From: Enorma burkinafasonensis
GTDB lineage: Bacteria > Actinomycetota > Coriobacteriia > Coriobacteriales > Coriobacteriaceae
DNA length: 64,000 nt
Assembly (NCBI RefSeq): GCF_902150035.1
Contig: NZ_LR597502.1
Location: forward strand, 62,001-126,000
Direction of reading: 5' to 3'
Part shown: positions 754-61,145 of the stretch, piece by piece
How positions within the stretch are numbered: the stretch's first letter is position 1
How the letters are laid out: every line of letters begins with the position of its first letter
Position numbers and translations under genes: made by a program
Notes under the pieces: model-generated
What the model was told of the DNA's origin: nothing
Database searches by the model: none
The model's input: the letters and a program-made list of their open reading frames with translations, nothing else

Positions 754-3078
754 CTATGCGACGTAGAGCTCGTTCTCGAGCTTGCGGGTCGCCTGAATGT
801 ATTCCTGTTTTCCGCCAAACGCCTTGACGATCTTCATCGGGCTCCCGAAGCGGCGGAACTCCTCCAAGTCGAGCACGCGGGTGTCGTCGAGATCAACAAG
901 GTTGGAGGTCGCGAACTTGTCGAGAAGCGTCTCAAGGACCTCGCGAGCCACTCCCGAGTACTCGTAGAGGATGCCTTTTTTCTTGACGTTGTTTGCGCGC
1001 TCGCTCCGGGTGAGCGGCTTCTGGTCGTAGGCGATGTGACAGATGAGGTCGAAGTCGCTCATCTGGTCCTGCCCGGACTCTCGGCGCAGCTCATCGAGAA
1101 AGACGCCGTGGGCGCGCAGCTCGTCGATGATGGCCTGCTTCCGGTCCTCGGCGCTCCATGCGACGAGGAAGTGATCGAGGGTGTCAAACTCGCCGAGAAT
1201 GTTTTTACGCGTGTAGTCCTTTAAGCTCTCCGTCACGAGCTGGCCGTCGGAGGAATAGTATTCCACACGCTCTGAAACGATATGGACATCCACGCCGTGG
1301 ACGTGATACTTGATGCGTTTCTTCTCGGCATCGCCGCCCGGGCCGTCGGGCCAATCGGGAGGTGGCGTCACGTCGGGAGGGGAGTCGGGTTTATCCTCAT
1401 CGGGTACCATGGGCCCGTCGGGCGCCGGCTCGAAGATCACGGCGGGTTCCCCGTCGAAGTCGGGGTCGGCGAAGAGGCGCGACGCATCTCGGAAGTCGAG
1501 GATGGTGAAATAGCGCTTATCGTATTCCTCACATATGCGCGTGCCACGTCCGACAATCTGCTTGAACTCGGTCATGCCGTGCTCGCCGAACTTGTTGTCG
1601 AGCACGACGACCTTGCACGTCTTGCAGTTCACGCCCGTGGTGAGGAGCTTGGAGGTGGTGACGATGGTCGGGAACCGCTCGTCGGGGCCAATGAAGTTGT
1701 CGAGCTGTGCCTTGCCCTCTTTGTCGTCCCCCGTGATTTTCATCACGTAGGTCGGGTGGTCCTTGACGATGTCGGCGTTCTCGTTGACGAGCGCCCTGCG
1801 CATGTTCTCTGCATGCTCGATGTCAACGCAGAACACGATGGTCTTTGCGTAGCGGTCGGTTTCCTTGAGGAACTGCGTGATCTTCTTGGCAACCTGCTCG
1901 TTTCTCTCCTTGATGACGATCTCGCTGTCGAAGTCCTGCTTCTCATAGACCCGGTCGGGAAGCTCCTCGCCCCGGTCGTCGATCTTTCCGGCTTCGGGGC
2001 GGTATCCGTAGACGTCCACGTTCATCTTGGGTCGGATGACCTTGTAAGGGGCGAGGAACCCATCCTCGATACCCTGCTTGAGTGAGTAGGTATAGACGGG
2101 CTCTCCGAAGTAAGTGATGTTCGAAACGTCCTTTGTCTCCTTGGGTGTTGCGGTCATGCCGATTTGGATGGCGCAGTCGAAGTACTCGAGAATCTTGCGC
2201 CAGGCGGAGTCTGCCGCTGCGCTTCCCCGATGGCACTCGTCGACGATGATTAGGTCGAAGAACTCGCGATCGAACTCACGGAAGATCTCCTCGCCCTTCT
2301 CGCCCACGAGCTGCTGATAAAGCGAGAAATAGATTTCGTACGCGGGGTCGAGCTTTCTGTTCTCGACCTTAGTGGTTACCTTCTTGAGCGGCTTGAAGTC
2401 GCCGTCGATGGTTTGGTCAACGAGGATGTTACGGTCGGCGAGATAGAGAACCTTGGCGACCTCGGTCGTCATACGCAGACGATGGACGATTTGGAAGGCG
2501 GTGAAGGTCTTGCCTGTGCCCGTCGCCATAACGAGGAGGATGCGATCCTGTCCCCGCGCAATCGCCTCAAGGGTCTTGTTCACGGCGTTCCGCTGGTAGT
2601 AACGCGGAGCGTTCCCGCTGTGCTCCTGGTAATAGGGGGCGGTAACAATTTCCTGGGCATGCTCGTGCTCCAGCCCCTTAGCCTTCGAGTAACGTCCCCA
2701 AAGCTCTTCGGGTGTTGGAAACTCGTCCATGGCAAGGCCGCGCTCCTTGCCAGTGAGGAAGTCGTGCTCGATGAAGCCCTTTCCATTTGTGCTATAGGCA
2801 AAGGGAACGTTGAGAGCTTGGGCGTATCCCATGCCCTGTTGAAGGCCTGCCGAGATCGTATGCTCGGTGTCCTTAGCCTCGACTATGGCGATGGGGATGT
2901 TGGGGGCGTACATGAGGAGGTAGTCGGCTTTCTTCCTTTCCTTGCGAGTCACGAAGTTACCGCGCACGATGATCTCGCCGTCGGTGAAGTAGTACTCGGT
3001 AAAAACCTGTCGATCTCTGTCCCACGACTTCATGATCGCAGGATCTATGAGTTTCAATCTTGTGTCTGATTCGTTCAT
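754..3078 (-). CDS. hsdR: Type I restriction enzyme R subunit HsdR
   Basis: 774 residues from ATG at 3078. This subunit translocates DNA and cuts it when the site is unmethylated. An N-terminal PD-(D/E)xK nuclease is visible with D52 and E67-A-K69. The superfamily 2 helicase motor follows: Walker A ATGTGKT at 185-191, DECH at 280-283, TATP at 309-312, and a motif VI-like QIVGRGTR further on. The C-terminus is a helical region presumed to contact HsdM. The length suits the shorter EcoR124/EcoAI-like HsdR families. No strong Shine-Dalgarno is seen before the ATG. The gene is intact and is followed by hsdM on the same strand. Confidence 0.95.
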   Translation of the reverse strand: MNESDTRLKLIDPAIMKSWDRDRQVFTEYYFTDGEIIVRGNFVTRKERKKADYLLMYAPNIPIAIVEAKDTEHTISAGLQQGMGYAQALNVPFAYSTNGKGFIEHDFLTGKERGLAMDEFPTPEELWGRYSKAKGLEHEHAQEIVTAPYYQEHSGNAPRYYQRNAVNKTLEAIARGQDRILLVMATGTGKTFTAFQIVHRLRMTTEVAKVLYLADRNILVDQTIDGDFKPLKKVTTKVENRKLDPAYEIYFSLYQQLVGEKGEEIFREFDREFFDLIIVDECHRGSAAADSAWRKILEYFDCAIQIGMTATPKETKDVSNITYFGEPVYTYSLKQGIEDGFLAPYKVIRPKMNVDVYGYRPEAGKIDDRGEELPDRVYEKQDFDSEIVIKERNEQVAKKITQFLKETDRYAKTIVFCVDIEHAENMRRALVNENADIVKDHPTYVMKITGDDKEGKAQLDNFIGPDERFPTIVTTSKLLTTGVNCKTCKVVVLDNKFGEHGMTEFKQIVGRGTRICEEYDKRYFTILDFRDASRLFADPDFDGEPAVIFEPAPDGPMVPDEDKPDSPPDVTPPPDWPDGPGGDAEKKRIKYHVHGVDVHIVSERVEYYSSDGQLVTESLKDYTRKNILGEFDTLDHFLVAWSAEDRKQAIIDELRAHGVFLDELRRESGQDQMSDFDLICHIAYDQKPLTRSERANNVKKKGILYEYSGVAREVLETLLDKFATSNLVDLDDTRVLDLEEFRRFGSPMKIVKAFGGKQEYIQATRKLENELYVA

Positions 3079-4114: not shown

Positions 4115-5005
4115 TTAGGACGCCTGTTTTGCGAGCATCTTCTGGAAGAACTTGGTGTTGTAGAGGGGGAGCGCAGCCGGAACGTCGAGCTGGTTCTTTG
4201 CCATGCCCAGGACCTTCTCTCCGTTGTGTCCCATGTCGGCGATGAACATGAGTCCTGAGACGAAGCTCGCCATATCGGAACCGAGATACACGATGGGGTC
4301 TGCCATCTCACGCGACGTGGCAAGGCGCCCGATGGCCCCGTTCTCCTTGAGGAGCTTGTCGGCGCCGCCCGCCATTTTCTCGAACTCTGCCTTCATGCCC
4401 GTGTCGGTCGACCCGGGCAGCACGGCGTTGACGCGAATGCCGCGGCTGCCGTACTCGACCGCCTTGAGCGTCGTGTAATAGTTCATGGCGCGCTTGGAGA
4501 GCGTGTAGGCCATGATGCCGACGCCGTTTCTCGGCGAGACGCGCTTCATGAAGGCGACCATCTCGTCCCAGGTGGCGCAATCCATGATCTTCACGTACTC
4601 GCGCTTCCACTTCTCCCACATAAGGCCGCCCGTCGAGGTCACGTAGACGATGGCTCCGCCCGCGGCCATGCGCTTATCGAGATGGGTATCGGTGATGTAC
4701 TTGTTGGCGATGAAATTGACCGTGAAGGTGGTCCAGTAGTCGGTCTTCGCGCCCGAGAGGCCGGCTACACCGAAGAAGCAGTCGATATGGCTCGGGATCG
4801 CGGTAAACGCCTCGTCGATGCTTTGCTTGTTGGAAAGGTCGCACGTGAGGAACGCCTTCGATCCGGGAAGCTCGACGATGTTTCTGTCGAGTGCGTACAC
4901 CTCGGCACCGAGCTCGATGAGCAGCTCGCAGGTCGCCTTGCCCATGCCGCTTGCCGCTCCGGTAACCACGCACGTCTTGCCCTGATATCCCAGCAGATCG
5001 TTCAA
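4115..5005 (-). CDS. Short-chain dehydrogenase/reductase, possibly a hydroxysteroid dehydrogenase
   Basis: 296 residues from a TTG start at 5005. The TTG is preceded at good spacing by AAGGAGGG. The frame stays open further upstream, but that part overlaps the divergent TetR gene and has no family signal. The Rossmann motif TGAASGMG is at 15-22, an Asp at residue 40 ends beta strand 2 (suggesting NAD rather than NADP), and the catalytic Ser124, Tyr167 and Lys171 are present. A longer than usual segment lies between the catalytic Ser and Tyr. The layout resembles 3-alpha-hydroxysteroid and related alcohol dehydrogenases of gut bacteria, but the substrate cannot be read from sequence. The divergent TetR-type gene is its likely regulator. 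Confidence 0.85.
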   Translation of the reverse strand: MNDLLGYQGKTCVVTGAASGMGKATCELLIELGAEVYALDRNIVELPGSKAFLTCDLSNKQSIDEAFTAIPSHIDCFFGVAGLSGAKTDYWTTFTVNFIANKYITDTHLDKRMAAGGAIVYVTSTGGLMWEKWKREYVKIMDCATWDEMVAFMKRVSPRNGVGIMAYTLSKRAMNYYTTLKAVEYGSRGIRVNAVLPGSTDTGMKAEFEKMAGGADKLLKENGAIGRLATSREMADPIVYLGSDMASFVSGLMFIADMGHNGEKVLGMAKNQLDVPAALPLYNTKFFQKMLAKQAS

Positions 5006-5110
5006 GATGCCCTCCTTCGAAATGAGACAAATGTATATTGACCATAGGGCAGGGCTCCCCCGCGGGTAGGTGGCGGTGGGCAAAATGAGACAGAAGGGGC
5101 GAGTATTCTC
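5006..5110. promoter_or_regulatory. Divergent promoter region with 10-bp direct repeats
   Basis: The sequence aaatgagaca occurs at 5020-5029 and again at 5083-5092, in the same orientation and 63 bp apart (about six helical turns). One copy lies close to each divergent gene. This is a candidate binding site for the TetR-family protein, although TetR operators are usually palindromic and no good palindrome was found. An AT-rich TATACA-like stretch on the minus strand near 5030-5040 could be the -10 of the SDR promoter. Confidence 0.4.
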
Positions 5111-5614
5111 ATGAGACGGAGCTATGTGAAAGAGAGCCTTACCCAAGCGTTGCTGCGCCTGCTCGAACGAAAGCGTTTGGACGAGATCAGCGTGAGCGAG
5201 CTTGTCGCGGAGGCGGGGGTGTCGCGCGCGTCGTTCTACCGGAATTTCATCTCCATTCGGGATATCGCCGACAGATTCGTCGCCGATCGGTTCGCCGAGC
5301 TCTTCGCTCGCAACACCATGACAGCTAAGAACGTATCCCAAGTTGTCGAGTGGATCTTCCAAGGGATTTATTCATATAGACGCGAGTTCACGGTGCTGTA
5401 TCGAAGAGGCCTGCTTGCCGGGTTGGACGATCTGTTCTATGTGTGGACTGTTGAGCAGATCGAGCGCTTGGGGGTTCTCAACAACCGCTACCAACCTCAT
5501 TACTTCGCGGGCGCTTCGTCCGCTTTGGTGAAGGCGTGGATAGGATACGGCTTTGAGGAGAGTCCGTGCGAGATGGCGCGCATTTTCGCCCGGTCGCTGG
5601 AGGGGTATCTCTAG
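5111..5614 (+). CDS. TetR/AcrR-family transcriptional regulator
   Basis: 167 residues starting at ATG 5111. Residues 1-50 form a TetR-type helix-turn-helix, with VSELVAEAGVSRASFYRNF as the recognition segment. The remaining helical part is a typical ligand-binding and dimerisation domain. It is divergent from the SDR gene with 105 bases between starts, the usual arrangement for a local repressor whose ligand is related to the enzyme's substrate. The ligand is not predictable. Confidence 0.88.
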   Translation: MRRSYVKESLTQALLRLLERKRLDEISVSELVAEAGVSRASFYRNFISIRDIADRFVADRFAELFARNTMTAKNVSQVVEWIFQGIYSYRREFTVLYRRGLLAGLDDLFYVWTVEQIERLGVLNNRYQPHYFAGASSALVKAWIGYGFEESPCEMARIFARSLEGYL

Positions 5615-5811
5615 GAAAACAACCTCTCGCCGGCGTGTGCCGAGCGGCTCCGGGGGCTCGGTCTCGATGAACCAGTGGTCCTCAAGATAATCGCGGATGT
5701 AGACCCCTTGCTGCTTGCTTTGCGCTGCTCGCGAAATAGATGATGTGCGAGCCCGCGAGCGACTGCTCGCGAATAGGGGTGCCCGGACCAGGGTGCCTCC
5801 TCGAGGACGGG

Positions 5812-5924
5812 GTTAGGTGCAGTCGATTTCGCGTTAGGTGCAAATGGTCTGAGAAAAAACTCGAGGGCGCCTGAGATGTCCCTGCTGGTTTGCACCTAAC
5901 GCGAAAAGAGGCGCACCCAACGGG
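5812..5924. repeat. Intergenic element 1: 18-bp inverted repeat plus flanking partial copies
   Basis: A perfect 18-bp inverted repeat occupies 5827-5844 and 5889-5906 around a 44-base centre. Its core word gttaggtgca occurs once more outside the left arm (5812-5821, 20 bp away), and a degenerate copy (cgcacccaacggg) follows the right arm near 5912-5924. Similar designs with different words occur at 26906-27020 and 29519-29615. Function is unknown; a folded RNA, a protein-binding array or a mobile-element remnant are all possible. Confidence 0.6.
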
Positions 5925-6025
5925 AAAAGGGGGGCGCGGAACGGGGGATGCGGGGTCCCGCGCTGCGGGGGAGAGGCCTGCCATGACCGCATCAAATATG
6001 GAGATAGGCGGGTATGGAGATTCTG

Positions 6026-6055
6026 CTGGCATTTCGCACGCGAGACGCGTATCAT
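6026..6055 (+). promoter_or_regulatory. Possible promoter for the truncated spc operon
   Basis: A CTGGCA (6026-6031) and TATCAT (6050-6055) are separated by 18 bases, about 140 bases upstream of rplE. The -35 matches consensus at four of six positions. It is the best sigma-70-like candidate found in the gap and would be needed if rplE is really the first gene of its transcript. Confidence 0.35.
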
Positions 6056-6191
6056 ACCGACCTGTATTGACCGGCTCCTGTCGGCTATTCGTCATGCCCC
6101 GGGGCAGCCATCCCGGGACGCGGCGCGGCAGGAGGCACGAGGACAACCCAGTGTGGCCAAGCCCCGTGCTTAAAACCCCAAAGGAGTTGAC

Positions 6192-6749
6192 ATGGCTGAG
6201 GAGAAGTACGTCCCGCGTCTCAAGACCAAGTACCAGAACGAGGTCCGCAAGCAGCTGCAGGACAAGTTCCAGTACAAGAACGTCATGATGATCCCGAAGA
6301 TCGAGAAGATCGTCGTGAACATGGGTGTCGGCGAGGCCGCCACCGATTCCAAGGCTATCGACGGCGCCGTGCGCGACCTGCGCGCCATCACCGGCCAGCA
6401 GCCGATGGTCACCCGCGCCCGCAAGTCCATCGCGTCCTTCCGCCTGCGCGCCGGCATGCCGATCGGCGCCAAGGTCACCCTGCGCGGCGACCGTATGTGG
6501 GAGTTCCTCGACCGCCTCACCGCCGTCGCGATCCCCCGTATCCGCGACTTCCGCGGCATCTCGCCCAAGAGCTTCGACGGCCGCGGCAACTTCTCCATGG
6601 GCGTGACCGAGCAGCTCATCTTCCCCGAGATCGATTTCGATTCCGTGGACCACACCCGCGGTATGGACATCACCATCGTCACCACCGCCCAGACCGACGA
6701 AGAGGGCCGCGCCCTGCTCGACGGTTTCGGCTTCCCGTTCAAGAAGTAA
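6192..6749 (+). CDS. rplE: 50S ribosomal protein L5
   Basis: 185 residues from ATG 6192, with AAAGGAG upstream. L5 binds 5S rRNA in the central protuberance of the large subunit. [13 protein letters not shown] near residue 38 and the [10 protein letters not shown] segment near the end are typical. The length is standard. It is the first ribosomal gene of the window; rplX, normally immediately upstream, is absent, so transcription must start from a local promoter or read in from elsewhere. Confidence 0.98.
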
Positions 6750-6827: not shown

Positions 6828-7013
6828 GTGGCTAAGAAATCGATGATCGCCAAGCAGCAGCGTGAGCCGAAGTTCTCGACGCGCGCGTACACCCGTTGCC
6901 AGCGTTGCGGCCGTCCGCATTCGGTCTACCGCAAGTTCGGCCTGTGCCGTGTCTGCTTCCGCGAGCTGGCGCTCAAAGGCGAGCTTCCCGGCATCAAGAA
7001 GGCCAGCTGGTAA
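6828..7013 (+). CDS. rpsZ: 30S ribosomal protein S14, zinc-binding type Z
   Basis: 61 residues from GTG 6828, preceded by AAGGAGG. This short S14 form carries a zinc ribbon with Cys24-x2-Cys27 and Cys40-x2-Cys43, so it is the zinc-dependent type and not the longer cysteine-free one. It is a 16S rRNA-binding protein of the small-subunit head. Its place between rplE and rpsH is canonical. Confidence 0.97.
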
Positions 7014-7133
7014 GTCACTGCCAGTGTCCGGGTAGTGCAGCCCGGGCAGGGAAGAGCGTGCACGGCAGGCTCGACCGCTATGGGTGGCCGAGGACCGGTT
7101 GCACGAGTTCATCTAGAACGAAGGAGAATCTGC

Positions 7134-7532
7134 ATGAACCTCACTGACCCGATCGCAGACATGCTTACGCGTATCCGTAACGCGAATGCTGCGAACAAGG
7201 CCACGGTCTCGATGCCGAGCAGCAAGAAGCTCGTCGAGATCGCGCGCGTTCTGTATGAAGAGGGCTACATCGAGAGCTACACCGTCGAGGATACGGTGCC
7301 TCAGAAGACCCTCGACATCACCCTTAAGTACGGCCCCAAGAAGCAGAAGGTCATCTCCGGCATCAAGCGCATCTCCAAGCCCGGTCTGCGCAAGTACGCC
7401 GGCGTCGGCGACCTTCCCCGCGTGCGCGGTGGTCTTGGCACCGCCATCGTTTCCACCAGCAAGGGCGTCATGGCCGACCGCGACTGCCGCAAGGCCGGCG
7501 TCGGCGGCGAGATCGTCGCGTTCGTCTGGTAA
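7134..7532 (+). CDS. rpsH: 30S ribosomal protein S8
   Basis: 132 residues from ATG 7134, with AAGGAG at 7121-7126. The frame is open upstream, but only this ATG has a ribosome binding site and gives the standard N-terminus [17 protein letters not shown]8 binds helix 21 of 16S rRNA and in E. coli represses spc operon translation. A 120-base gap with a small hairpin (CCGGG/CCCGG near 7030-7050) precedes it. Confidence 0.97.
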
Positions 7533-7564
7533 GACGACTGGCGAGTAGAAGGAAGGAGAACACC

Positions 7565-8101
7565 GTGTCCCGTATCGGTAAGAAGCCTGTCCAGATTCCC
7601 GCCGGAGTCGACGTGGCAGTCGACGGTTCGCATGTGACCGTCAAGGGCCCCAAGGGCCAGCTCGAGCTTGACATCTACAGCAAGCTCTCCATCTCCATCG
7701 AGGAGAACGTGCTCACCGTGATCCGCCCCGATGACGAGCGCGAGACCCGCGCCCGCCACGGCCTCACGCGCGCGCTCATCCAGAACATGGTCACGGGCGT
7801 GTCCGAGGGCTATACCAAGTCCCTCGAGCTCGCCGGTGTCGGTTACCGCGTGCAGCTCAAGGGCAAGGACCTCGAGCTCTCGCTCGGTTACTCGCATCCC
7901 GTGAACTACCCTGCTCCCGAAGGCATCACCTTCGAGGTGCCCGACAACACGCACATCCACGTGAAGGGCATCGACAAGCAGCAGGTCGGCCAGGTCGCCG
8001 CGGAGATCCGCACCAAGCGTCCGCCGGAGCCCTACAAGGGCAAGGGTATCCACTACGTCGGCGAGCACATCCGCCGCAAGCTCGGCAAGGCCGCCAAGTA
8101 G
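7565..8101 (+). CDS. rplF: 50S ribosomal protein L6
   Basis: 178 residues from GTG 7565, preceded by GGAAGGAG. The N-terminus [14 protein letters not shown] and the C-terminal [12 protein letters not shown] segment are diagnostic. L6 binds 23S rRNA near the sarcin-ricin loop. The length is normal and the gene follows rpsH by 32 bases. Confidence 0.98.
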
Positions 8102-8123
8102 TAGGTACGCCCGACTGGTAAGA

Positions 8124-8145
8124 CCAGCACCCCGTCAGGTGCTGG
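8124..8145 (+). other. Hairpin between rplF and rplR
   Basis: An 8-bp perfect stem (ccagcacc 8124-8131 with ggtgctgg 8138-8145) and a 6-base loop lie in the 69-base rplF-rplR gap. No T-run follows. It may be an RNA stability or regulatory structure, like the one after rplE. Confidence 0.45.
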
Positions 8146-8170
8146 CAAGATCCTCTAAGGAGATTCAAGG

Positions 8171-8533
8171 ATGGATAAGAACAAAGCGAAGCTCGCCGGC
8201 CTCAAGCGTCGCCAGCGTCGCGTCCGCGGGAAGATCTTCGGCACGCCCGAGCGTCCGCGCCTGCGCGTGACCCGCACCAACGCAAACATCTACGCGATGA
8301 TCGTGGACGACACGAAGGGCCACACCCTCGTCTCGGCCTCGACCCTCGAGCCCGAGTTCAAGGGCACCCACACCTCGAACAAGGAGGCTGCCGAGAAGGT
8401 CGGTAAGCTCGTTGGCGAGCGCGCCATCGAGGCCGGCATCAAGGCCGTCACCTTCGACCGCGGTGGCCGTATCTACCATGGCCGCGTCAAGGCCCTCGCC
8501 GACGGCGCCCGCGCCGCCGGTCTCGAGTTCTAG
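8171..8533 (+). CDS. rplR: 50S ribosomal protein L18
   Basis: 120 residues from ATG 8171, with AAGGAG upstream. It is a 5S rRNA-binding protein that acts with L5. The basic N-terminus, [20 protein letters not shown] and the terminal [20 protein letters not shown] match the family at its usual length. Its place between rplF and rpsE is canonical. Confidence 0.98.
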
Positions 8534-8544
8534 GAGGTTTGAGC

Positions 8545-9075
8545 ATGGCTCGTAATCGTGACAACAAGCAGCGCGAGGCCTCCGAGTTCGAGGAGCGCGT
8601 CGTCTTCATCAACCGTGTGGCCAAGACCGTCAAGGGTGGCCGCCGCATGTCCCTCGTGGCGCTCGTCGTCGTCGGCGACGGCAAGGGCAACGTGGGCCTG
8701 GGTATGGGCAAGTCCGCCGAGGTGCCCCTGGCCATCTCCAAGGCCTCGCTCGACGCCAAGAAGCACATGTTCCACGTGCCCGTCACCGAGACCGGCACCA
8801 TCCCGCATGAGGTCGAGGGCCACTTCGGCGCCGGCCGCATCATCATCAAGCCCGCTGTCGAGGGTACCGGCGTGATCGCCGGCGGCGCCGTGCGCCCCCT
8901 CTTCGAGCTTGCCGGCATCAAGAACGTCCTCTCCAAGTCGCTCGGCACCGATAACGGCCTGAACATCATCAAGGCCGCCGCCGAGGGCCTCAAGGAGCTC
9001 TCGAGCCCTGAGGATGTCGCGGCCCGCCGCGGCATCACGGTCTCCGAGATGTTCGTGGGCAAGAAGGAGGCTTAA
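8545..9075 (+). CDS. rpsE: 30S ribosomal protein S5
   Basis: 176 residues. ATG 8545 is chosen over an in-frame TTG at 8539 because AGGAGG at 8532-8537 is correctly spaced from the ATG. S5 takes part in decoding accuracy and forms part of the mRNA entry tunnel. The double-stranded RNA-binding domain ([20 protein letters not shown]) and the second beta domain are complete. It starts 11 bases after the rplR stop. Confidence 0.97.
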
Positions 9076-9077
9076 AG

Positions 9078-9260
9078 ATGGCAGACACCATCAAGGTCAA
9101 GCAGGTCCGTAGCACCAACGGCTGCAAGCAGGATCAGGTCAGGACCATCAAGGCCCTCGGCCTCGGGAAGATCAACCGTGTTCACGAGCTTCCCGACAAC
9201 GAATCTGTCCGCGGAATGATCTTCAAGGTCAAGCACCTTGTTGAGATTGTAGAGGAGTAG
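9078..9260 (+). CDS. rpmD: 50S ribosomal protein L30
   Basis: 60 residues from ATG 9078, only two bases after the rpsE stop. The two-strand, two-helix fold is recognisable in [19 protein letters not shown] and the [16 protein letters not shown] end. The presence of rpmD as a separate gene between rpsE and rplO is standard. Confidence 0.96.
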
Positions 9261-9262
9261 CA

Positions 9263-9712
9263 ATGCAGCTTCATGACCTCACCCCCGCGCCGGGGTCGAC
9301 CCACAGGCGCAAGCGCATCGGCCGCGGTAACTCCTCCGGCCATGGCACCACGGCCGGTCGCGGCCAGAAGGGCCAGCTTTCCCGCTCCGGTGGCGGCAAG
9401 GGCTCGGGCTTCGAGGGCGGCCAGACGCCGCTCGCGATGCGTCTGCCCAAGCTCCCGGGTTTCCGTAACCCCCGCCGCATCGAGTTCGCGGCCGTGAACA
9501 TCGCCCGCCTGGACGAGAAGTTCGAGGACGGTGCCGTGATCGACGGCGCCGCGCTCAAGGCCGCTGGCATCATCAAGAAGGAGTTCCAGCCCGTGAAGGT
9601 TCTTGCTGAGGGCGAGACCACCAAGAAGTTCACGGTGCGCGTCGACAAGGTCTCGGCTGCCGCCAAGGCCAAGATCGAGGCGGCTGGCGGAAAGGTCGAG
9701 CTCCCGTGCTAA
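9263..9712 (+). CDS. rplO: 50S ribosomal protein L15
   Basis: 149 residues from ATG 9263. The N-terminal Gly/Arg/Lys-rich extension ([20 protein letters not shown]) that threads into 23S rRNA is clear, followed by the globular domain. Its last codons overlap the GTG start of secY, which suggests translational coupling. Confidence 0.98.
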
Positions 9713-10974
9713 CTGGCCTGAAGAACGCGTTCCGTGTCAAAGACCTCCGGGATAAGATTCTCTTCACCATAGCGATGCTCGTCGTGTACCGCATCGGTGC
9801 ACACGTTCCCGTGCCCGGTGTCCCCTTCCAGGGGATGCTGGGCCTTTTCGGCGACTCGGGCGCTATGTCGCTGCTGAATCTGTTCTCCGGCGGGGCCCTG
9901 AGCTACGTCTCGGTGTTCTCCCTCGGCATCATGCCCTACATCACGAGCTCCATCATCATGCAGCTTTTGCAGAGCGTGATCCCGAGCCTGCACGAGCTCG
10001 CCCGCGAGGGCGAGGTCGGCCAGACCAAGATCACCCAGTATTCTCGCTATCTGACGCTCGGCTTGGGTATCCTCAACTCCATCGGCTACCTGTTCCTGTT
10101 CAAGAGCTACGGGATCAGCTTCGCCGACGCGGGCGCGCCCGAGATCATCTTCGACATCATGATCGTCGGCACGCTCACCGCGGGCGCGATGCTCATCATG
10201 TGGATCGGTGAGCTCATCACCCAGCGCGGTATCGGCAACGGCATGTCGCTCATCATCTTCGCGAACATCATGGCCGGTCTTCCGCAGTCCATCGTCGCCT
10301 CCATGTCGGAGGGCTCGATGGGCCTCGCGATCACCGCGCTCATCCTCGTGGTGATCCTCTGCGTCATCCCGTTCATCGTGTACCTCGAGCGCGGCCAGCG
10401 CCGCATCCCGGTGCAGTACGCCAAGCGCGTCGTGGGCCGTCGCATGATGGGTGGCCAGTCCACCTACCTGCCGATCAAGGTCAACACCGCGGGCGTCGTG
10501 CCCATCATCTTCGCGAGCGCGCTTCTGTACTTCCCGGCGCAGCTGGCGGTCTTCTTCCCCAGCGTCGGCTGGGTGCAGGCCGTCGCCAACGCGCTCGCCA
10601 CGGGCTGGATCAACTGGATCCTTAACGTGGTGCTCATCGTGTTCTTCGCGTACTTCTACACGTCGATGATCTTCAACCCCGATGAGACGGCCGAGAACCT
10701 GAAGCGCCAGGGTGGCTTCATCCCCGGCGTGCGCCCGGGACGCGCCACGGCGAACTACATCAAGAACGCCCTCAACAAGATCACGCTCCCGAGCGCGATC
10801 TTCCTGGCGCTCATCGCCATCGTCCCGTCGATCGTCTTCTCGGCGACCGGCAACCAGCTCATCCAGTCGTTCGGCGGCACGTCCGTCCTCATCATGGTGG
10901 GCGTGGTCCTCGATACCATCGACAAGGTGGAGGGCCAGCTCAAGATGTACGACTACGATGGGTTCTTCAAGTAA
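9706..10974 (+). CDS. secY: Preprotein translocase channel subunit SecY
   Basis: 422 residues from GTG 9706, overlapping the end of rplO by 7 bases. SecY forms the protein-conducting pore of the inner membrane with SecE and SecG. About ten hydrophobic segments are visible, with the plug region after [11 protein letters not shown], the cytosolic loop containing [10 protein letters not shown], and the [12 protein letters not shown] loop. Position between rplO and adk is canonical. Confidence 0.98.
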
Positions 10975-10992
10975 GTGAGAGAGGAGTCACCC

Positions 10993-11619
10993 ATGAACAT
11001 CGTTCTGTTGGGAGCCCCCGGTGCCGGCAAGGGCACCATGGCCCAGAAGCTCGTCGCCGAGTTCGGCGTCGCGCACATCTCGACGGGTGACCTGCTCCGC
11101 GCCGCCGTCAAGGGCGGCACCGAGCTCGGTGTCCAGGCCAAGAAGTACATGGACGCCGGCGAGCTCGTGCCCGACCAGCTCGTGATCGACCTGGTCAAGG
11201 AGCGCCTCGCCGCCGACGACGCCCAGCGCGGCTTCATCCTGGACGGCTTCCCCCGCAACACGGTCCAGGCCGTGACGCTCGACTCCGAGCTCGCGGGCAT
11301 GGGCCGCTCCATCGACTGCGCCCTGCTCATCGACGTGGAGCCCAAGGTCATCATCGACCGCCTCTCCGCCCGCCGCACCTGCCGCGCCTGCGGCTACACC
11401 GGCACCGCCGCCGACGCGGTGTGCCCCTCCTGCGGTGGCGAGATGTACCAGCGTGATGACGACAAGCCGGAGACCATCCAGAACCGCCTGGACGTCTACC
11501 AGAACTCGACGGCCCCGCTCGTCGAGTACTACCGTGGCCAGGGCCTGCTCAAGGCTGTCGACGGCGCCCGCGCCATCGACGAGGTCTATGCGGACGTCAA
11601 GGAAGCGCTCGGTCTATGA
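10993..11619 (+). CDS. adk: Adenylate kinase with zinc-binding lid
   Basis: 208 residues; ATG 10993 is preferred to an in-frame GTG at 10975 because GAGAGGAG lies just ahead of the ATG. It interconverts ATP plus AMP and two ADP. The P-loop GAPGAGKGT is at 7-15, and DGFPRN at about 84-89 binds AMP. The lid carries Cys130-x2-Cys133 and Cys144-x2-Cys147, a structural zinc site common in Gram-positive enzymes. The stop overlaps the map start (ATGA). Confidence 0.97.
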   Translation: MNIVLLGAPGAGKGTMAQKLVAEFGVAHISTGDLLRAAVKGGTELGVQAKKYMDAGELVPDQLVIDLVKERLAADDAQRGFILDGFPRNTVQAVTLDSELAGMGRSIDCALLIDVEPKVIIDRLSARRTCRACGYTGTAADAVCPSCGGEMYQRDDDKPETIQNRLDVYQNSTAPLVEYYRGQGLLKAVDGARAIDEVYADVKEALGL

Positions 11620-12404
11620 TCAAGATCAAATCCGAGCGTGAGATCGAGGAGATGAAGAAGGCCGGAGCGCTGTCCAAGATGGCGCTCCGCCACGTTGGCG
11701 CCATGGTGCGTCCCGGCGTCTCCACCTTCGAGCTCGACCAGCTCGCCGAGCAGATCATCCGCATGCACGGCGGCAAGCCGGCCTTCAAGGGCTACGGCGG
11801 GTTCCCGGGGACCATCTGCGCGTCGCTCAACGACGCCGTGGTCCACGGGATCCCCAACCCCGACGTGATCCTGCGCGACGGCGACATCCTGTCCGTCGAC
11901 ACGGGAGCGGTCGTGGACGGCTGGGTGGGCGACAACGCCTGGACCTTCTACGTGGGCAACCCCGCGCCCGAGGTGAAGGCGCTCTGCGAGTGCACCCTCG
12001 ACTGCCTGAAGGCGGGCATCGCCCAGGCCGTGCCGGGCAACCGTATCGGCGACATCGGGCACGCCATCCAGTCGCTCGCCGAGTCGAACGGCTACGGGGT
12101 GCTGCGCGAGTACGTGGGCCACGGCGTGGGCCGCGTGATGCACGAGGAGCCCAACGTCCCCAACTTCGGCAAGAAGGGGAGGGGCGTGCGCCTCGAGGTG
12201 GGCATGGTCATCGCGATCGAGCCCATGATCACCTTGGGCACGCACCACGTCTCGACCGGTCCCGACGGCTGGATCGTCACCACGAACGACCACCTGCCTG
12301 CCGCGCACTACGAGAACACGATCGCCATCACGGCGGACGGTCCCGTGGTCCTCACGCAGGATGCCCAAGGGCCGTGGTGCTCGCTCCGGGGCGGGGTCAT
12401 GTAA
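11616..12404 (+). CDS. map: Methionine aminopeptidase, type I
   Basis: 262 residues from ATG 11616, overlapping the adk stop by four bases. It removes the initiator methionine from nascent proteins. His77, Asp95, Asp106, His169 and Glu202, plus a final Glu near residue 233, are in the positions of the substrate-binding His and the metal ligands. The secY-adk-map-infA order is the usual Gram-positive one. Confidence 0.96.
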   Translation: MIKIKSEREIEEMKKAGALSKMALRHVGAMVRPGVSTFELDQLAEQIIRMHGGKPAFKGYGGFPGTICASLNDAVVHGIPNPDVILRDGDILSVDTGAVVDGWVGDNAWTFYVGNPAPEVKALCECTLDCLKAGIAQAVPGNRIGDIGHAIQSLAESNGYGVLREYVGHGVGRVMHEEPNVPNFGKKGRGVRLEVGMVIAIEPMITLGTHHVSTGPDGWIVTTNDHLPAAHYENTIAITADGPVVLTQDAQGPWCSLRGGVM

Positions 12405-12527
12405 GCCCAAGTGCCACCTCCCGCGCGGCTGCGGGGGAGTTATGAAGTCATTACGAAAAATCCACGGTACAGCACGAAGTGTTGTATCATTCGCTGTTGC
12501 TGTCGTTTCCTAGAGAAAGATGTGCCT

Positions 12528-12746
12528 GTGAAAAAGGAAGATGCAATCGAACTCGAGGGTAAGGTCACCGAGCCGCTCCCCAATGCGATGTTCCGCGTCG
12601 AGCTCGAGAACGGTCATTCGGTGCTTTGCTCCATCTCGGGCAAGATCCGCATGAACTACATCCGTATCCTCCCGGGCGACAAGGTCGTGGTGGAGCTCTC
12701 CCCCTATGACCTCACGCGCGGGCGCATCACGTATCGCTACAAGTAG
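12528..12746 (+). CDS. infA: Translation initiation factor IF-1
   Basis: 72 residues, exactly the family length, starting at GTG 12528 with AGAGAAAG eight bases upstream. A GTG two codons earlier (12522) is possible but too close to that site. It is an OB-fold protein that occupies the A site during initiation; [21 protein letters not shown] and [16 protein letters not shown] are typical. A 123-base gap after map contains TATCAT at 12485-12490, a possible -10, but no convincing -35. Confidence 0.96.
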
Positions 12747-12850
12747 CGACAGCCCCGCCCGCTGAGCGGGCATTCCAGCTTTGGGTATTCACGTCTGCGG
12801 CTGGACGAGTAGATAGTAGGCAGTGTTTCGCGTATCCGAAAGGAAGCATC

Positions 12851-12964
12851 ATGAAGGTACGTCCTTCGGTCAAGAAGATGTGCGACAAGTGCAAGATCAT
12901 CAGGCGCCATGGCAAGGTGCTCGTCATCTGCGAGAACCCGCGCCACAAGCAGCGTCAGGGTTAA
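12851..12964 (+). CDS. rpmJ: 50S ribosomal protein L36
   Basis: 37 residues, from ATG 12851 to TAA 12962-12964, preceded by GAAAGGA. The sequence begins [15 protein letters not shown] and ends NPRHKQRQG. The zinc ligands are Cys11, Cys14, Cys27 and His32, so this is the zinc-binding form. A short hairpin (gcccgc/gcgggc near 12757-12771) lies in the infA-rpmJ gap. It is followed 16 bases later by rpsM. Confidence 0.96.
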
Positions 12965-12980
12965 GAGAGGAGATTGAAAG

Positions 12981-13355
12981 TTGGCCCGTATCAATGGTGT
13001 CGACCTTCCGCGCGAGAAGCGCGTCGAGATCGGTCTGACCTACATTTACGGCATCGGCCGCACCACCGCGTCTAAGATCTGCGCGGAGACTAATATCAAC
13101 CCGGACACCCGCGTCCGCGACCTCACCGACGAGGAGGTCGACGTCCTCCGCAAGTACATCGACGAGAACCACCTCATGGTGGAGGGCGACCTCCGTCGTG
13201 AGCGCAACCAGAACGTCAAGCGCCTTATGGACATCGGTTGCTACCGTGGCCTGCGCCACCGCAAGGGCCTGCCGGTCCGCGGCCAGCGCACGCACACCAA
13301 CGCTCGCACCCGTAAGGGCCCGAAGCGTCAGATCGGTGCAAAGAAGAAGAAGTAA
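12981..13355 (+). CDS. rpsM: 30S ribosomal protein S13
   Basis: 124 residues from a TTG start at 12981, with GAGAGGAG upstream. The N-terminus [20 protein letters not shown] and the basic tail [20 protein letters not shown] are typical. S13 contacts the P-site tRNA and bridges to L5. The TTG start is unusual for such a highly expressed gene, but no ATG or GTG fits. Confidence 0.96.
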
Positions 13356-13365
13356 GGAGCGCTAG

Positions 13366-13773
13366 ATGGCTACTGCAAAGAACAAGCGCGGCGCTGTCAC
13401 CCGTATCAAGCGCGCCGATCGCAAGAACATCGCCGTGGGGCAGGCGCACATCCGCTCCACGTTCAACAACACGATCATCTCGATCACCGATCCCCAGGGG
13501 AATGTCATCGCGTGGCGTTCCGCCGGCCAGGTGGGCTTCAAGGGCTCCCGCAAGAGCACGCCCTTCGCTGCCCAGATGGCCGCCGAGGCCTGCGCCAAGG
13601 CCGCCATGGAGCACGGCATGCACAAGGTCGCCGTGTTCGTGAAGGGCCCCGGCTCCGGCCGCGAGACCGCCATCCGCTCGCTCCAGGCCGCCGGCCTCGA
13701 GGTCACGAGCATCCAGGACAAGACCCCCATCCCGCACAACGGCTGCCGCCCCAAGAAGCGTCGCCGCGTGTAA
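13366..13773 (+). CDS. rpsK: 30S ribosomal protein S11
   Basis: 135 residues from ATG 13366, 10 bases after rpsM. The conserved [19 protein letters not shown] segment and the C-terminal [13 protein letters not shown] are present. S11 lines the platform and contacts mRNA upstream of the P site. It belongs to the alpha operon block. Confidence 0.98.
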
Positions 13774-13792
13774 CTGAAAGGATCGCATTACC

Positions 13793-14389
13793 ATGGCAAT
13801 CGACAGGACTCCTGTTCTTAAGCGCTGCCGCCAGCTCGGGGTCGATCCCGTTGAGCTGGGCTACAGCAGCAAGAAGGAATCGAAGCGTCAGCCCAAGCGC
13901 CGCCGTAAGGAATCCGAGTACGGCATGCAGCTGCGCGAGAAGCAGAAGGCTAAGTTCATCTACGGTGTGCTCGAGAAGCAGTTCCACCGCTACTTCGAGC
14001 GTGCCCGCCGCATGAAGGGCGTCACGGGCGACAACCTCATGACCCTTCTGGAGAGCCGCCTCGACAACGTCGTGTTCCGTCTCGGCTTCGCCCGCACGCG
14101 TCGCGAGGCCCGTCAGACCGTCACCCACGGCCACTTCACCGTGAACGGCGTGCGCGTCGACATCCCCTCCTACCAGGTCAAGCCCGGCGACGTCGTCGCC
14201 GTCGGCGAGAAGTATCGCGACCTCCTTCCCATCAAAGAGGCCCTCATCCAGTCCGAGCGCTTCGAGGTGCCCGGCTGGCTCGAGGTCGATATCGAGAAGC
14301 TCTCCGGTAACGTGCTCTCGCTGCCCACGCGCGAGCAGATCAGCACTGATATCCAAGAGCAGCTCATCGTCGAGCTCTACTCTAAGTAG
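13793..14389 (+). CDS. rpsD: 30S ribosomal protein S4
   Basis: 198 residues from ATG 13793. S4 nucleates small-subunit assembly. The S4 RNA-binding domain ([18 protein letters not shown]) and C-terminal domain are intact. The N-terminus lacks the zinc-ligand cysteines seen in some S4 forms (only Cys11 is present near the start), so this is the zinc-free type. Confidence 0.97.
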
Positions 14390-14422
14390 TCCATCCGGGC
14401 TGCTGAGGCTGGAGGTTAATAC

Positions 14423-15367
14423 ATGTCAGAATTCATTAGGCCTCAGGTTCAAGTCGAGGAGATCGATGCGACGTCCGCTCGCGTCTCCGTTGAGCCGCTC
14501 GAGCGCGGGTACGGCGACACGCTGGGCAACTCCCTGCGTCGCGTGCTCCTGTCCTCCCTGGAGGGCGCCGCGGTCGAGGCGATTCAGATCGATGGAGCCC
14601 AGCATGAGTTCATGACCATCCCCAACATGGTCGAGGATGTCACCGATATCGTCCTCAACGTGAAGGGCCTGGTCTTCCGTGCGCTGGGCACCAGTGCGGG
14701 CGAGGGTACGGCCACCATCTCCGTCGATGGTCCGTGCGAGGTCACCGGTGCGGATTTCTTCATCCCCTCCGAGTTCGAGCTCGTCAACCCAGAGCAGCAC
14801 ATCGCCACGCTCAACGAGGGCGGTCACCTCACCATGAGCATGCGCATCGGCTACGGCCGCGGCTATGTGTCCTACGAGGGCAACAAGCGCGATAACGACC
14901 CGATCGGCGTCATCCACGTCGACTCGCTGTTCTCGCCCGTGCGCCGCTGCGCCAAGCTCGTCGAGGCGTGCCGCGTCGGCCAGCACACCGACTACGACCG
15001 CCTCGTCCTCGAGATCGAGACGAACGGCGCCATCGCCCCGCGCGACGCCGTGGTCCAGGCTGCGAACATCATCAACCAGCACATGAGCGCGTTCATGAAC
15101 CTCGCCGAGACCCCCGAGGTCGAGGAGGAGGCTTCCATCTTCGCTCCCGAGGTCACGAGCGATAACGCCGAGCTCGACAAGCAGATCGAGGATCTCGATC
15201 TCTCGGTGCGCTCCTACAACTGCCTGAAGCGCGCGAGCATCCACTCCGTGCGTCAGCTGGTGGAGTTCTCCGAGAACGATCTGCTTAACATCCGCAACTT
15301 CGGCGTTAAGTCGATCGAGGAAGTCAAGGATAAGCTTGAGTCGATGGGTCTGAGCCTCAAGGCATAG
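14423..15367 (+). CDS. rpoA: RNA polymerase alpha subunit
   Basis: 314 residues from ATG 14423, preceded by GGAGG. The N-terminal assembly domain (residues 1 to about 230, with LERGYGDTLGNSLRRVLLSS) is followed by an acidic linker and the C-terminal UP-element and activator domain (about 245-314, with LKRASIHSVRQLVEFSEND). It is followed by rplQ as in most bacteria. Confidence 0.98.
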   Translation: MSEFIRPQVQVEEIDATSARVSVEPLERGYGDTLGNSLRRVLLSSLEGAAVEAIQIDGAQHEFMTIPNMVEDVTDIVLNVKGLVFRALGTSAGEGTATISVDGPCEVTGADFFIPSEFELVNPEQHIATLNEGGHLTMSMRIGYGRGYVSYEGNKRDNDPIGVIHVDSLFSPVRRCAKLVEACRVGQHTDYDRLVLEIETNGAIAPRDAVVQAANIINQHMSAFMNLAETPEVEEEASIFAPEVTSDNAELDKQIEDLDLSVRSYNCLKRASIHSVRQLVEFSENDLLNIRNFGVKSIEEVKDKLESMGLSLKA

Positions 15368-15395
15368 GCTCTGCACATAGAGGAGAAACGAGACC

Positions 15396-15914
15396 ATGCG
15401 TCACAACAAGAAGAAAGGCCTGAAGCTCGGCACCGACGCGAGCCACACCAAGGCCATGAAGAAGAGCCTTGCCAAGGCGCTCTTCGAGAACGACCGCATC
15501 AAGACCACCGAGACCCGCGCCAAGGCGCTGCGTGGCTACGTCGAGCCCATCATCACCTGGGCCAAGAAGGGCGACCTGCACTCCCGCCGCCTGGCCATCG
15601 CCAAGCTCGGCGACAAGCAGCTCGTCGCGGAGGTCTTCGACAAAGCCGCCCAGGGCATGTGGGCCGACCGTGACGGCGGCTACACCCGCATCATGAAGCT
15701 CGGTCCCCGCAAGGGCGACAACGCCCGCATGGTGATCATCGAGATCGTCAGCGAGCCCGTGGTCAAGAAGGCCGCCAAGGCCGCGCCCAAGAAGGCCGTC
15801 GCCCCCAAGAAGGTCGAGAAGGTCGAGGAGGAGGCCGCTCCCGCCGAGGAGGAGGTCGTCGAGACCGAGACCGCCGAGGTCGTCGAGGAGGCTGCCGAGG
15901 AGACCGCCGAGTAA
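15396..15914 (+). CDS. rplQ: 50S ribosomal protein L17 with long Lys/Ala/Glu tail
   Basis: 172 residues from ATG 15396. Residues 1-120 are a complete L17 (RHNKKKGLKLGTDASHTKAM to the IVSEPV strand). The remaining roughly 50 residues are a low-complexity tail that goes from Lys/Ala/Pro-rich to strongly Glu-rich. Tails of this kind occur on actinobacterial L17. It closes the operon and is followed by a strong terminator. Confidence 0.97.
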   Translation: MRHNKKKGLKLGTDASHTKAMKKSLAKALFENDRIKTTETRAKALRGYVEPIITWAKKGDLHSRRLAIAKLGDKQLVAEVFDKAAQGMWADRDGGYTRIMKLGPRKGDNARMVIIEIVSEPVVKKAAKAAPKKAVAPKKVEKVEEEAAPAEEEVVETETAEVVEEAAEETAE

Positions 15915-60001: not shown

Positions 60002-60255
60002 GGGATCCTCCAGATGACGGTTCGGGTCGGAGTTGCCGGGCCCGCGCGGCGCCCGACGGCTCCACGCTAGCAGATTCCCGGCCGGCCGGCGTCCCGCCAC
60101 AGAAACTCAACCGCATGTTGCTCGTTGGGTGGTCGCCGCGACCGCGGCGCCTGTGTACATCGCGCGCTGCTATAGTCGAGACGATGCGCGGCAGGTGCGC
60201 AGCGATGCGCCCGCCCACGCGGCGCACGGTAACCCTTTCGGGAGAGGAGACCCCT

Positions 60256-60954
60256 ATGAGATGCACCCTAACCGGCGATTCCGATTGCCCCATCGCCCGC
60301 ATCGCCCTTTCGCAGGGCGAGTCGGTCAAGACCGAGAGCGGCAGCATGGTGTACTCGCGCGGAGTCGAGATCACGGGCGGTCTCAACTCCAAGAAGAAGG
60401 GCATCGGCGGCGTGCTCGGCGCCATCGGCCGCAGCATCACGAGCGGCGAGTCGATGTTCATCACCACCGCGACCGGCACCGCCCCGACGGGCGAGATCGC
60501 GGTCGCGCCGCCGGTCCCGGGCAAGATCGTCCAGCTCCCCATCGATGATGCGCACCGGTACCGCCTCAACACGGGCGCGTTCCTCGCCTGCGACGAGACC
60601 GTCGAGTACACGATGGTGAGTCAGGGCATCTCCAAGGCGGTCTTCGGCAACACGGGAGGCCTGTTCGTCATGGAGGTCGGCGGCCAGGGAACGCTTCTGG
60701 TGTCCGCCTTCGGCGACATCCTCGCGCTCGACGTGGCGCCCGACATGCCGCTCACGGTCGACAACGAGCACGTCGTCGCCTGGGACGCCGCGCTCGACTA
60801 CCACATCGAGGCCGCGAGCGGGATCTTCGGCTTCACGACGGGCGAGGGCCTGGTCAACACGTTCACCGGCGCGGGTCGGGTCTACATCCAGACCAGGAAC
60901 CTCGCCAACCTCGCGCAGGCGATGCATCCCTACCTGCCTACGAGCTCGAACTGA
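60256..60954 (+). CDS. AIM24-family (TIGR00266) protein
   Basis: 232 residues from ATG 60256, with GAGAGGAG upstream. Beta-rich double domain: SVKTESGSMVYSRGVEITGG and GGVLGAIGRSITSGESMFIT, then VDNEHVVAWDAALDYHIEAA, characteristic of the family. Bacterial function unknown; the yeast relative acts in mitochondrial inner membrane organisation. No membrane helix. Confidence 0.9.
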   Translation: MRCTLTGDSDCPIARIALSQGESVKTESGSMVYSRGVEITGGLNSKKKGIGGVLGAIGRSITSGESMFITTATGTAPTGEIAVAPPVPGKIVQLPIDDAHRYRLNTGAFLACDETVEYTMVSQGISKAVFGNTGGLFVMEVGGQGTLLVSAFGDILALDVAPDMPLTVDNEHVVAWDAALDYHIEAASGIFGFTTGEGLVNTFTGAGRVYIQTRNLANLAQAMHPYLPTSSN

Positions 60955-61145
60955 CGCGGGCCCTGCCGCTATGGAACGGGCGCCCGGGAGATCGGATTGA
61001 CCCCCGGGTGCCCGTGCGCTGCATCCCGGATGTAAACAACCTATTGACACACAACACCTAGCGCGCTCGCGCGCCGCCGGTGCCCGTGCTTTTCGGGGGC
61101 GCTTCGGGTAGAGTTTCCCTGAGTTCGCGACGAGAAGGGTTCGAG

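Follow-up and report, generated by a model that had tools for sequence, protein, structure and literature searches.

Family-wide separation of rplX from rplE and a candidate ribosomal protein leader RNA before rplE in Coriobacteriaceae

Background

The spc operon of E. coli is controlled from the beginning of rplE, where S8 binds (PMC10931766). The same source calls the regulation of spc in subtilis or other species unknown, and its phylogeny not advanced. Lineage-restricted, covarying 5' UTR elements before ribosomal protein (r-protein) genes, such as the L31 leader of Coriobacteria, were described by Eckert and Weinberg 2020 (PMC7247131). Within the literature collection searched, no paper on a split between rplX and rplE in Coriobacteria came up. 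Here we describe such a split in Enorma burkinafasonensis and its relatives, together with a structured RNA element that precedes rplE.

Results

The stretch analysed (64,000 nucleotides, G000:C16:62001-126000, hereafter the window) belongs to a genome of 48 contigs that is 99.96% complete. In it, rplE (L5; 6192-6749, plus strand) is the first gene of the spc unit. The rest of the spc-alpha block, from rpsZ to rplQ (6828-15914, plus strand), runs rpsZ(N), rpsH, rplF, rplR, rpsE, rpmD, rplO, secY, adk, map and infA, and is completed by rpsM, rpsK, rpsD, rpoA and rplQ. No rplX and no other ribosomal gene was found 5' of rplE in the window. The original prediction that spc starts at rplE, with neither rplX nor the S10 block upstream, was therefore borne out. 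The genes identified there are a TetR-family regulator (5111-5614, plus strand, Pfam TetR_N 2.8e-7), a short-chain dehydrogenase (SDR; 4115-5008, minus strand, Pfam adh_short_C2 6.7e-27) and hsdR, a type I restriction subunit of a strain-specific island (754-3078, minus strand, Pfam ResIII 1.3e-41, EcoEI_R_C 5.5e-34 and HSDR_N_2).

The sole rplX of the genome was located at G000:C27:64835-65146 (minus strand), deep within a 153.6-kb contig, so that no copy stands beside rplE in this assembly. It is the final gene of an intact S10 operon, which answers the earlier question of where these genes had gone. About 33 nt past it there is a terminator-like hairpin (GGAGCCGG...CCGGCTCCTTTCTT), followed by rpiB and rpe on the opposite strand, an order shared with the related genome G002. 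Both junctions, at rplX on C27 and at rplE on C16, are more than 60 kb from the contig ends. As a separate observation, the insert region downstream of rplX carries Cas-like genes (G000:C27:43855-45655; Cas7e-like by eye).

The separation was compared among 60 relatives, 36 of which belong to the same family, among them Collinsella and probably Coriobacterium genomes. In all 36 the two genes were apart, either by 1.7-61 kb or on different contigs. Where both were on one contig, order and strand were nearly always kept, with gaps ranging from 1.7 kb (G007) to 61 kb (G006). Among the genomes from other families of the order in which both genes were found, they were adjacent in 21 of 22; in the remaining one (G052) the contig stops just behind rplX and the leader described below. 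In a further Collinsella genome (G188) the two genes lie on a single contig 0.87 Mb apart, rplX at 1.611 Mb of contig C3 on the plus strand and rplE at 0.739 Mb on the minus strand. There, ispF- and cysS-like genes adjoin the S10 side and an ispD-like gene adjoins the spc side, the arrangement expected after an inversion with a breakpoint in the rplX-rplE insert.

These comparisons bear on the alternative that the contig is a misjoin, in which the spc block was fused in error to the restriction island while the true position of rplX is beside rplE. The number of contigs speaks for it, as does the loss of colinearity between C16 and the sister genome G004 upstream of position 68021, where the adjacent glycolysis block is 0.85 Mb off in G004. 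However, rplX and rplE are separate in all of the family relatives, even where one long contig carries both genes. In addition, the rplX of C27 is followed by its terminator and rpiB/rpe in the same order as in G002, and the rplE junction has no repeat beyond about 110 diverged bases that could drive misassembly. A misjoin could alter only which genes sit upstream of 6020; it is superfluous for explaining the missing rplX, and we consider it very improbable. That the operon is truly split at rplE, the other possibility raised originally, is supported by the family-wide pattern.

The content of the insert between rplX and rplE differs among the family genomes. Most constant is a pair of genes on the opposite strand, which encode an RluA-type pseudouridine synthase and a U32+DUF3656 protein (L145-L160 and others). 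Further residents are genes for a PatB-like aminotransferase, RidA, PTS EIIA and xanthine permease, and xdhC genes. Several of these gene names are presumptive, being assigned from sequence; the U32+DUF3656 protein and the RluA-type synthase look like rRNA-modification enzymes (RlhA/RluA-like).

The rplX-leader gaps were also tabulated class-wide from the listed genomes, with coordinates transcribed by hand. In the sister family, 41 genomes with coordinates for both rplX and the leader gave 26 gaps of at most 1 kb, 9 of 1-3 kb and 6 of 5-28 kb, and a few additional genomes carry rplX and rplE on different contigs. This family is probably Atopobiaceae, judging from named loci with the same leader type, such as Olsenella SIG37 (L073) and Atopobium F0209 (L074), which have inserts of 1 kb and 6 kb, respectively, at the rplX|rplE joint. 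All 20 genomes of a third family, probably Eggerthellaceae, and all 18 genomes from other families were closed at this joint. Another opening of the S10 operon was seen in Anaerotardibacter muris (L102:2553-5443), which has three predicted genes between rplW and rplB.

Comparison of the junction with sister genomes, as had been proposed, showed that identity to G004 begins at C16:68021 (window position 6021) and extends into the spc block, whereas the DNA upstream differs. C27 matches the S10 side of G004 and, at a greater distance, sequence found on the far side of the spc block in G004. The spc block of the window's genome (C16:68021-88856) adjoins the restriction island and the glycolysis genes that are 0.85 Mb off in G004. 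This indicates that spc/alpha was relocated with a breakpoint within the old insert.

It could be asked whether the separation is real but the position of the restriction island, SDR and TetR genes beside rplE reflects an assembly error inside a variable insert. None of the other loci compared contained the island genes, and the island holds an inverted hsdS pair of 144-413 bp, both of which would suit such an error. Nevertheless, some 7-10 kb separate these repeats from the rplE junction, they are the only sizeable ones detected, and G188 shows a comparable relocation on a 1.7-Mb contig. An error of this kind is thus improbable. The inverted copies in the hsdS region (G000:C16:57455-58387 and 60126-61094, shortly before the window begins) are 92-97% identical and likely form an invertible, phase-variable type I specificity locus.

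The 577 bases before rplE had been described as non-coding and decayed. A part resembling decay was found at 5615-5745, where a minus-strand ORF remnant (QQGVYIRDYLEDHWFIETEPPEPLG...) that extends as far as the TetR gene's end has the appearance of a degraded gene terminus. The description does not hold for the gap as a whole, which also contains a palindromic repeat (5812-5921) and, at 6026-6191, a promoter and a leader RNA; from 6021 on, 87% identity to G004 likewise speaks against uniform decay. The palindrome (GTTAGGTGCA...TGCACCTAAC) has 33-nt arms, 79% complementary and 44 nt apart. It has short diverged matches of approximately 70-84% identity on contigs C29 and C19 and is possibly a small dispersed element.

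Promoter and leader occupy the last approximately 165 bases of the gap. The predicted promoter of the spc/alpha transcription unit, CTGGCA-18-TATCAT (equivalently TGGCAT-17-TATCAT; 6026-6055, plus strand), is the sole promoter-like site that a scan of 5600-6300 detected, with 0.1 expected. Across 30 distinct family sequences, TGGCA...TATCAT is conserved at each position. With a predicted terminator after rplX and a predicted, conserved promoter before rplE, spc/alpha has the features of an independent transcription unit.

The candidate r-protein leader RNA covers 6072-6180 (plus strand; covariance model R2, 57.7 bits, E 1.7e-10) and ends near the ribosome-binding site of rplE. Its minimum-energy fold contains two hairpins: P1 (6075-6134, arms 6075-6083 and 6126-6134) and, abutting it, P2 (6135-6168, arms 6135-6142 and 6161-6168), which has an A.C mismatch. 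A conserved tail with the ribosome-binding site follows (UUAAAACCCC and GGAG at 6183-6186; 6169-6187) and can, in the same type of fold, form a small hairpin over that site. The 36 distinct family leaders have in common GGCTCCTG...CAGGAGGCACGAGGACA...CCCCGTGCTTAAAACCCC-RBS-ATG, and the compact leaders of other families likewise show two abutting hairpins. A third pairing, YGG/CCR, that would close the P1/P2 junction is suggestive only. On its own the window leader was no more stable than shuffled sequence (z -0.07), so the support for it is comparative.

When all leaders were aligned directly with MAFFT, P1 was misplaced, so a small seed and covariance models were used instead. R1, built on a seed of 8 compact sequences, recovers the family leaders, including that of the window (29 bits). 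Across the class it matched 120 of 248 genomes, nearly always once and just before rplE; it missed the other 128, so the leader is documented for some families rather than for every one. R2, built from 52 sequences, has its sole match in the window's genome at E<=0.01 at 6072-6180. Across the phylum it matched 11 of 246 genomes, all of them Coriobacteriia and from two families, and the other sampled classes of Actinomycetota gave zero matches to the covariance models. No family of the Rfam 15 covariance models matches the leader.

In an alignment fitted to the covariance model, 97.9% of the pair cells were standard, and 78 double-change cells were counted, against 16.3 in shuffles (0/500) and 5-20 when the pairing was slid. 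P1 showed changes on both sides in 6 of 7 consensus pairs. For P2, 99.7% of the cells were paired and 5 of 7 pairs were compensated. In a sequence-only alignment P2 still had 99.2% of its cells paired and 20 double-change cells, against 4.6 in shuffles (0/500). The element therefore combines a 5' UTR position directly before rplE across species with a covarying secondary structure, as expected for an r-protein leader.

The families also differ in how closely rplX and rplE adjoin. In family f6 (locus L020) the two genes overlap and there is no leader. In f9, f4 and f8 the gap is 64-117 nt, without a terminator, and the leader is present (by model match in L006, L012 and L017, by eye in L019 and L027). 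Families f5, f10 and f3 have larger gaps, mostly with a terminator-like site. Relatives whose rplX-rplE gaps measure 64-620 bp carry the leader and, in part, the terminator. Since the leader is already there where the two genes are still neighbours, leader, promoter and S10 terminator appear to be older than the split. It had been argued that the spc half, if divided off, must have gained its own promoter. A predicted promoter of its own does exist and is conserved in the family; that it was gained as a consequence of the split is made improbable by the leader, and often the terminator, between the still-adjacent genes of relatives. We accordingly regard it as quite unlikely that the split came first and that promoter and leader followed, even though a divided operon obligatorily needs a promoter.

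Discussion

Because the leader lies at the point where S8 acts in E. coli, the start of rplE, autoregulation is the best reading, and the element is most likely an autoregulatory r-protein leader. Alternatively it might be a transcript-stability or ribosome-standby element, or another sensor, which we consider possible but unlikely. The ability of the tail to pair over the ribosome-binding site would fit such a role, as would the failure to recognise an rRNA mimic: a string search of the P2 and tail motifs in 23S/5S regions gave no obvious one. Class-wide covariation, the unique placement before rplE and the control exerted at rplE in E. coli favour r-protein regulation instead. Mimicry of the S8 site was also considered, and 16S h21 of these species, inspected by eye, gave no clear match to P2; a short, unscored GGC/AACC resemblance was noted near the junction. 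By our own estimate, S8 is a tentative candidate for the ligand, at somewhat less than an even chance; another spc/alpha protein, or none, is given about one chance in three, and L5 is a less likely choice. Transcription start, protein binding and ligand identity are what we infer.

As the whole explanation we consider it probable that a family-wide division between rplX and rplE, an independent spc/alpha unit, an r-protein leader and later insertion and relocation together produced the locus. In Coriobacteriaceae the S10-spc-alpha cluster would be permanently divided at this joint. rplX would close the S10 unit, usually via a strong predicted intrinsic terminator, and rplE would open a separate spc/alpha unit that has a promoter of its own and a structured leader of 110-170 nt (P1-P2-UUAAAACCCC-RBS). 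When in excess, a protein encoded by the unit, S8 as the E. coli case suggests or else L5, may bind P1/P2 and block translation of rplE and the coupled genes. With control of the downstream half starting only at rplE, the joint could open without loss of regulation. After opening, other genes would accumulate at the joint, and a rearrangement that broke within the insert would have moved spc/alpha elsewhere on the chromosome in some species, the present one among them. We infer the order of these steps (leader, terminator, inserts, relocation) from their distribution, not from a tree.

We lean, with some reservation, towards the broader view that an uncatalogued class of r-protein leader controls spc from rplE across much of Coriobacteriia and made rplX|rplE a regulatory fracture point, with a permanent opening in Coriobacteriaceae and repeated openings in the sister family. 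The leader would then be a concrete RNA element for spc regulation beyond E. coli. Moreover, the relatives form a graded series, from overlapping genes through a leader in a short gap, a leader with terminator and promoter, a small insert and a large insert to full relocation. It offers a picture of the break-up of a gene cluster that ranks among the most conserved in bacteria, and it suggests that an operon gives way at a point where its halves are already under separate regulation.

Like the E. coli S8 site, the element is a candidate cis-acting mRNA element at the start of rplE and would be expected to control spc translation from L5 on (PMC10931766). The E. coli site is internal to an mRNA that carries rplN and rplX ahead of rplE, and it is a mimic of 16S h21, whereas the element described here lies in a dedicated leader with its own predicted promoter, and its P1-P2 architecture is not obviously h21-like. 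With the leaders of Eckert and Weinberg 2020 (PMC7247131) it shares lineage restriction, covariation and position in the 5' UTR of an r-protein gene, but their text and table name no L5, S8 or L24 leader. In published accounts of ribosomal-cluster insertions, small gene insertions likewise open the cluster, which can later disconnect fully; examples from Proteobacteria and Bacilli concern the joints rpoBC|str, str|S10 and rplL|rsmC. In Coriobacteriaceae, by contrast, the joint is rplX|rplE, and its opening is fixed in a whole actinobacterial family.
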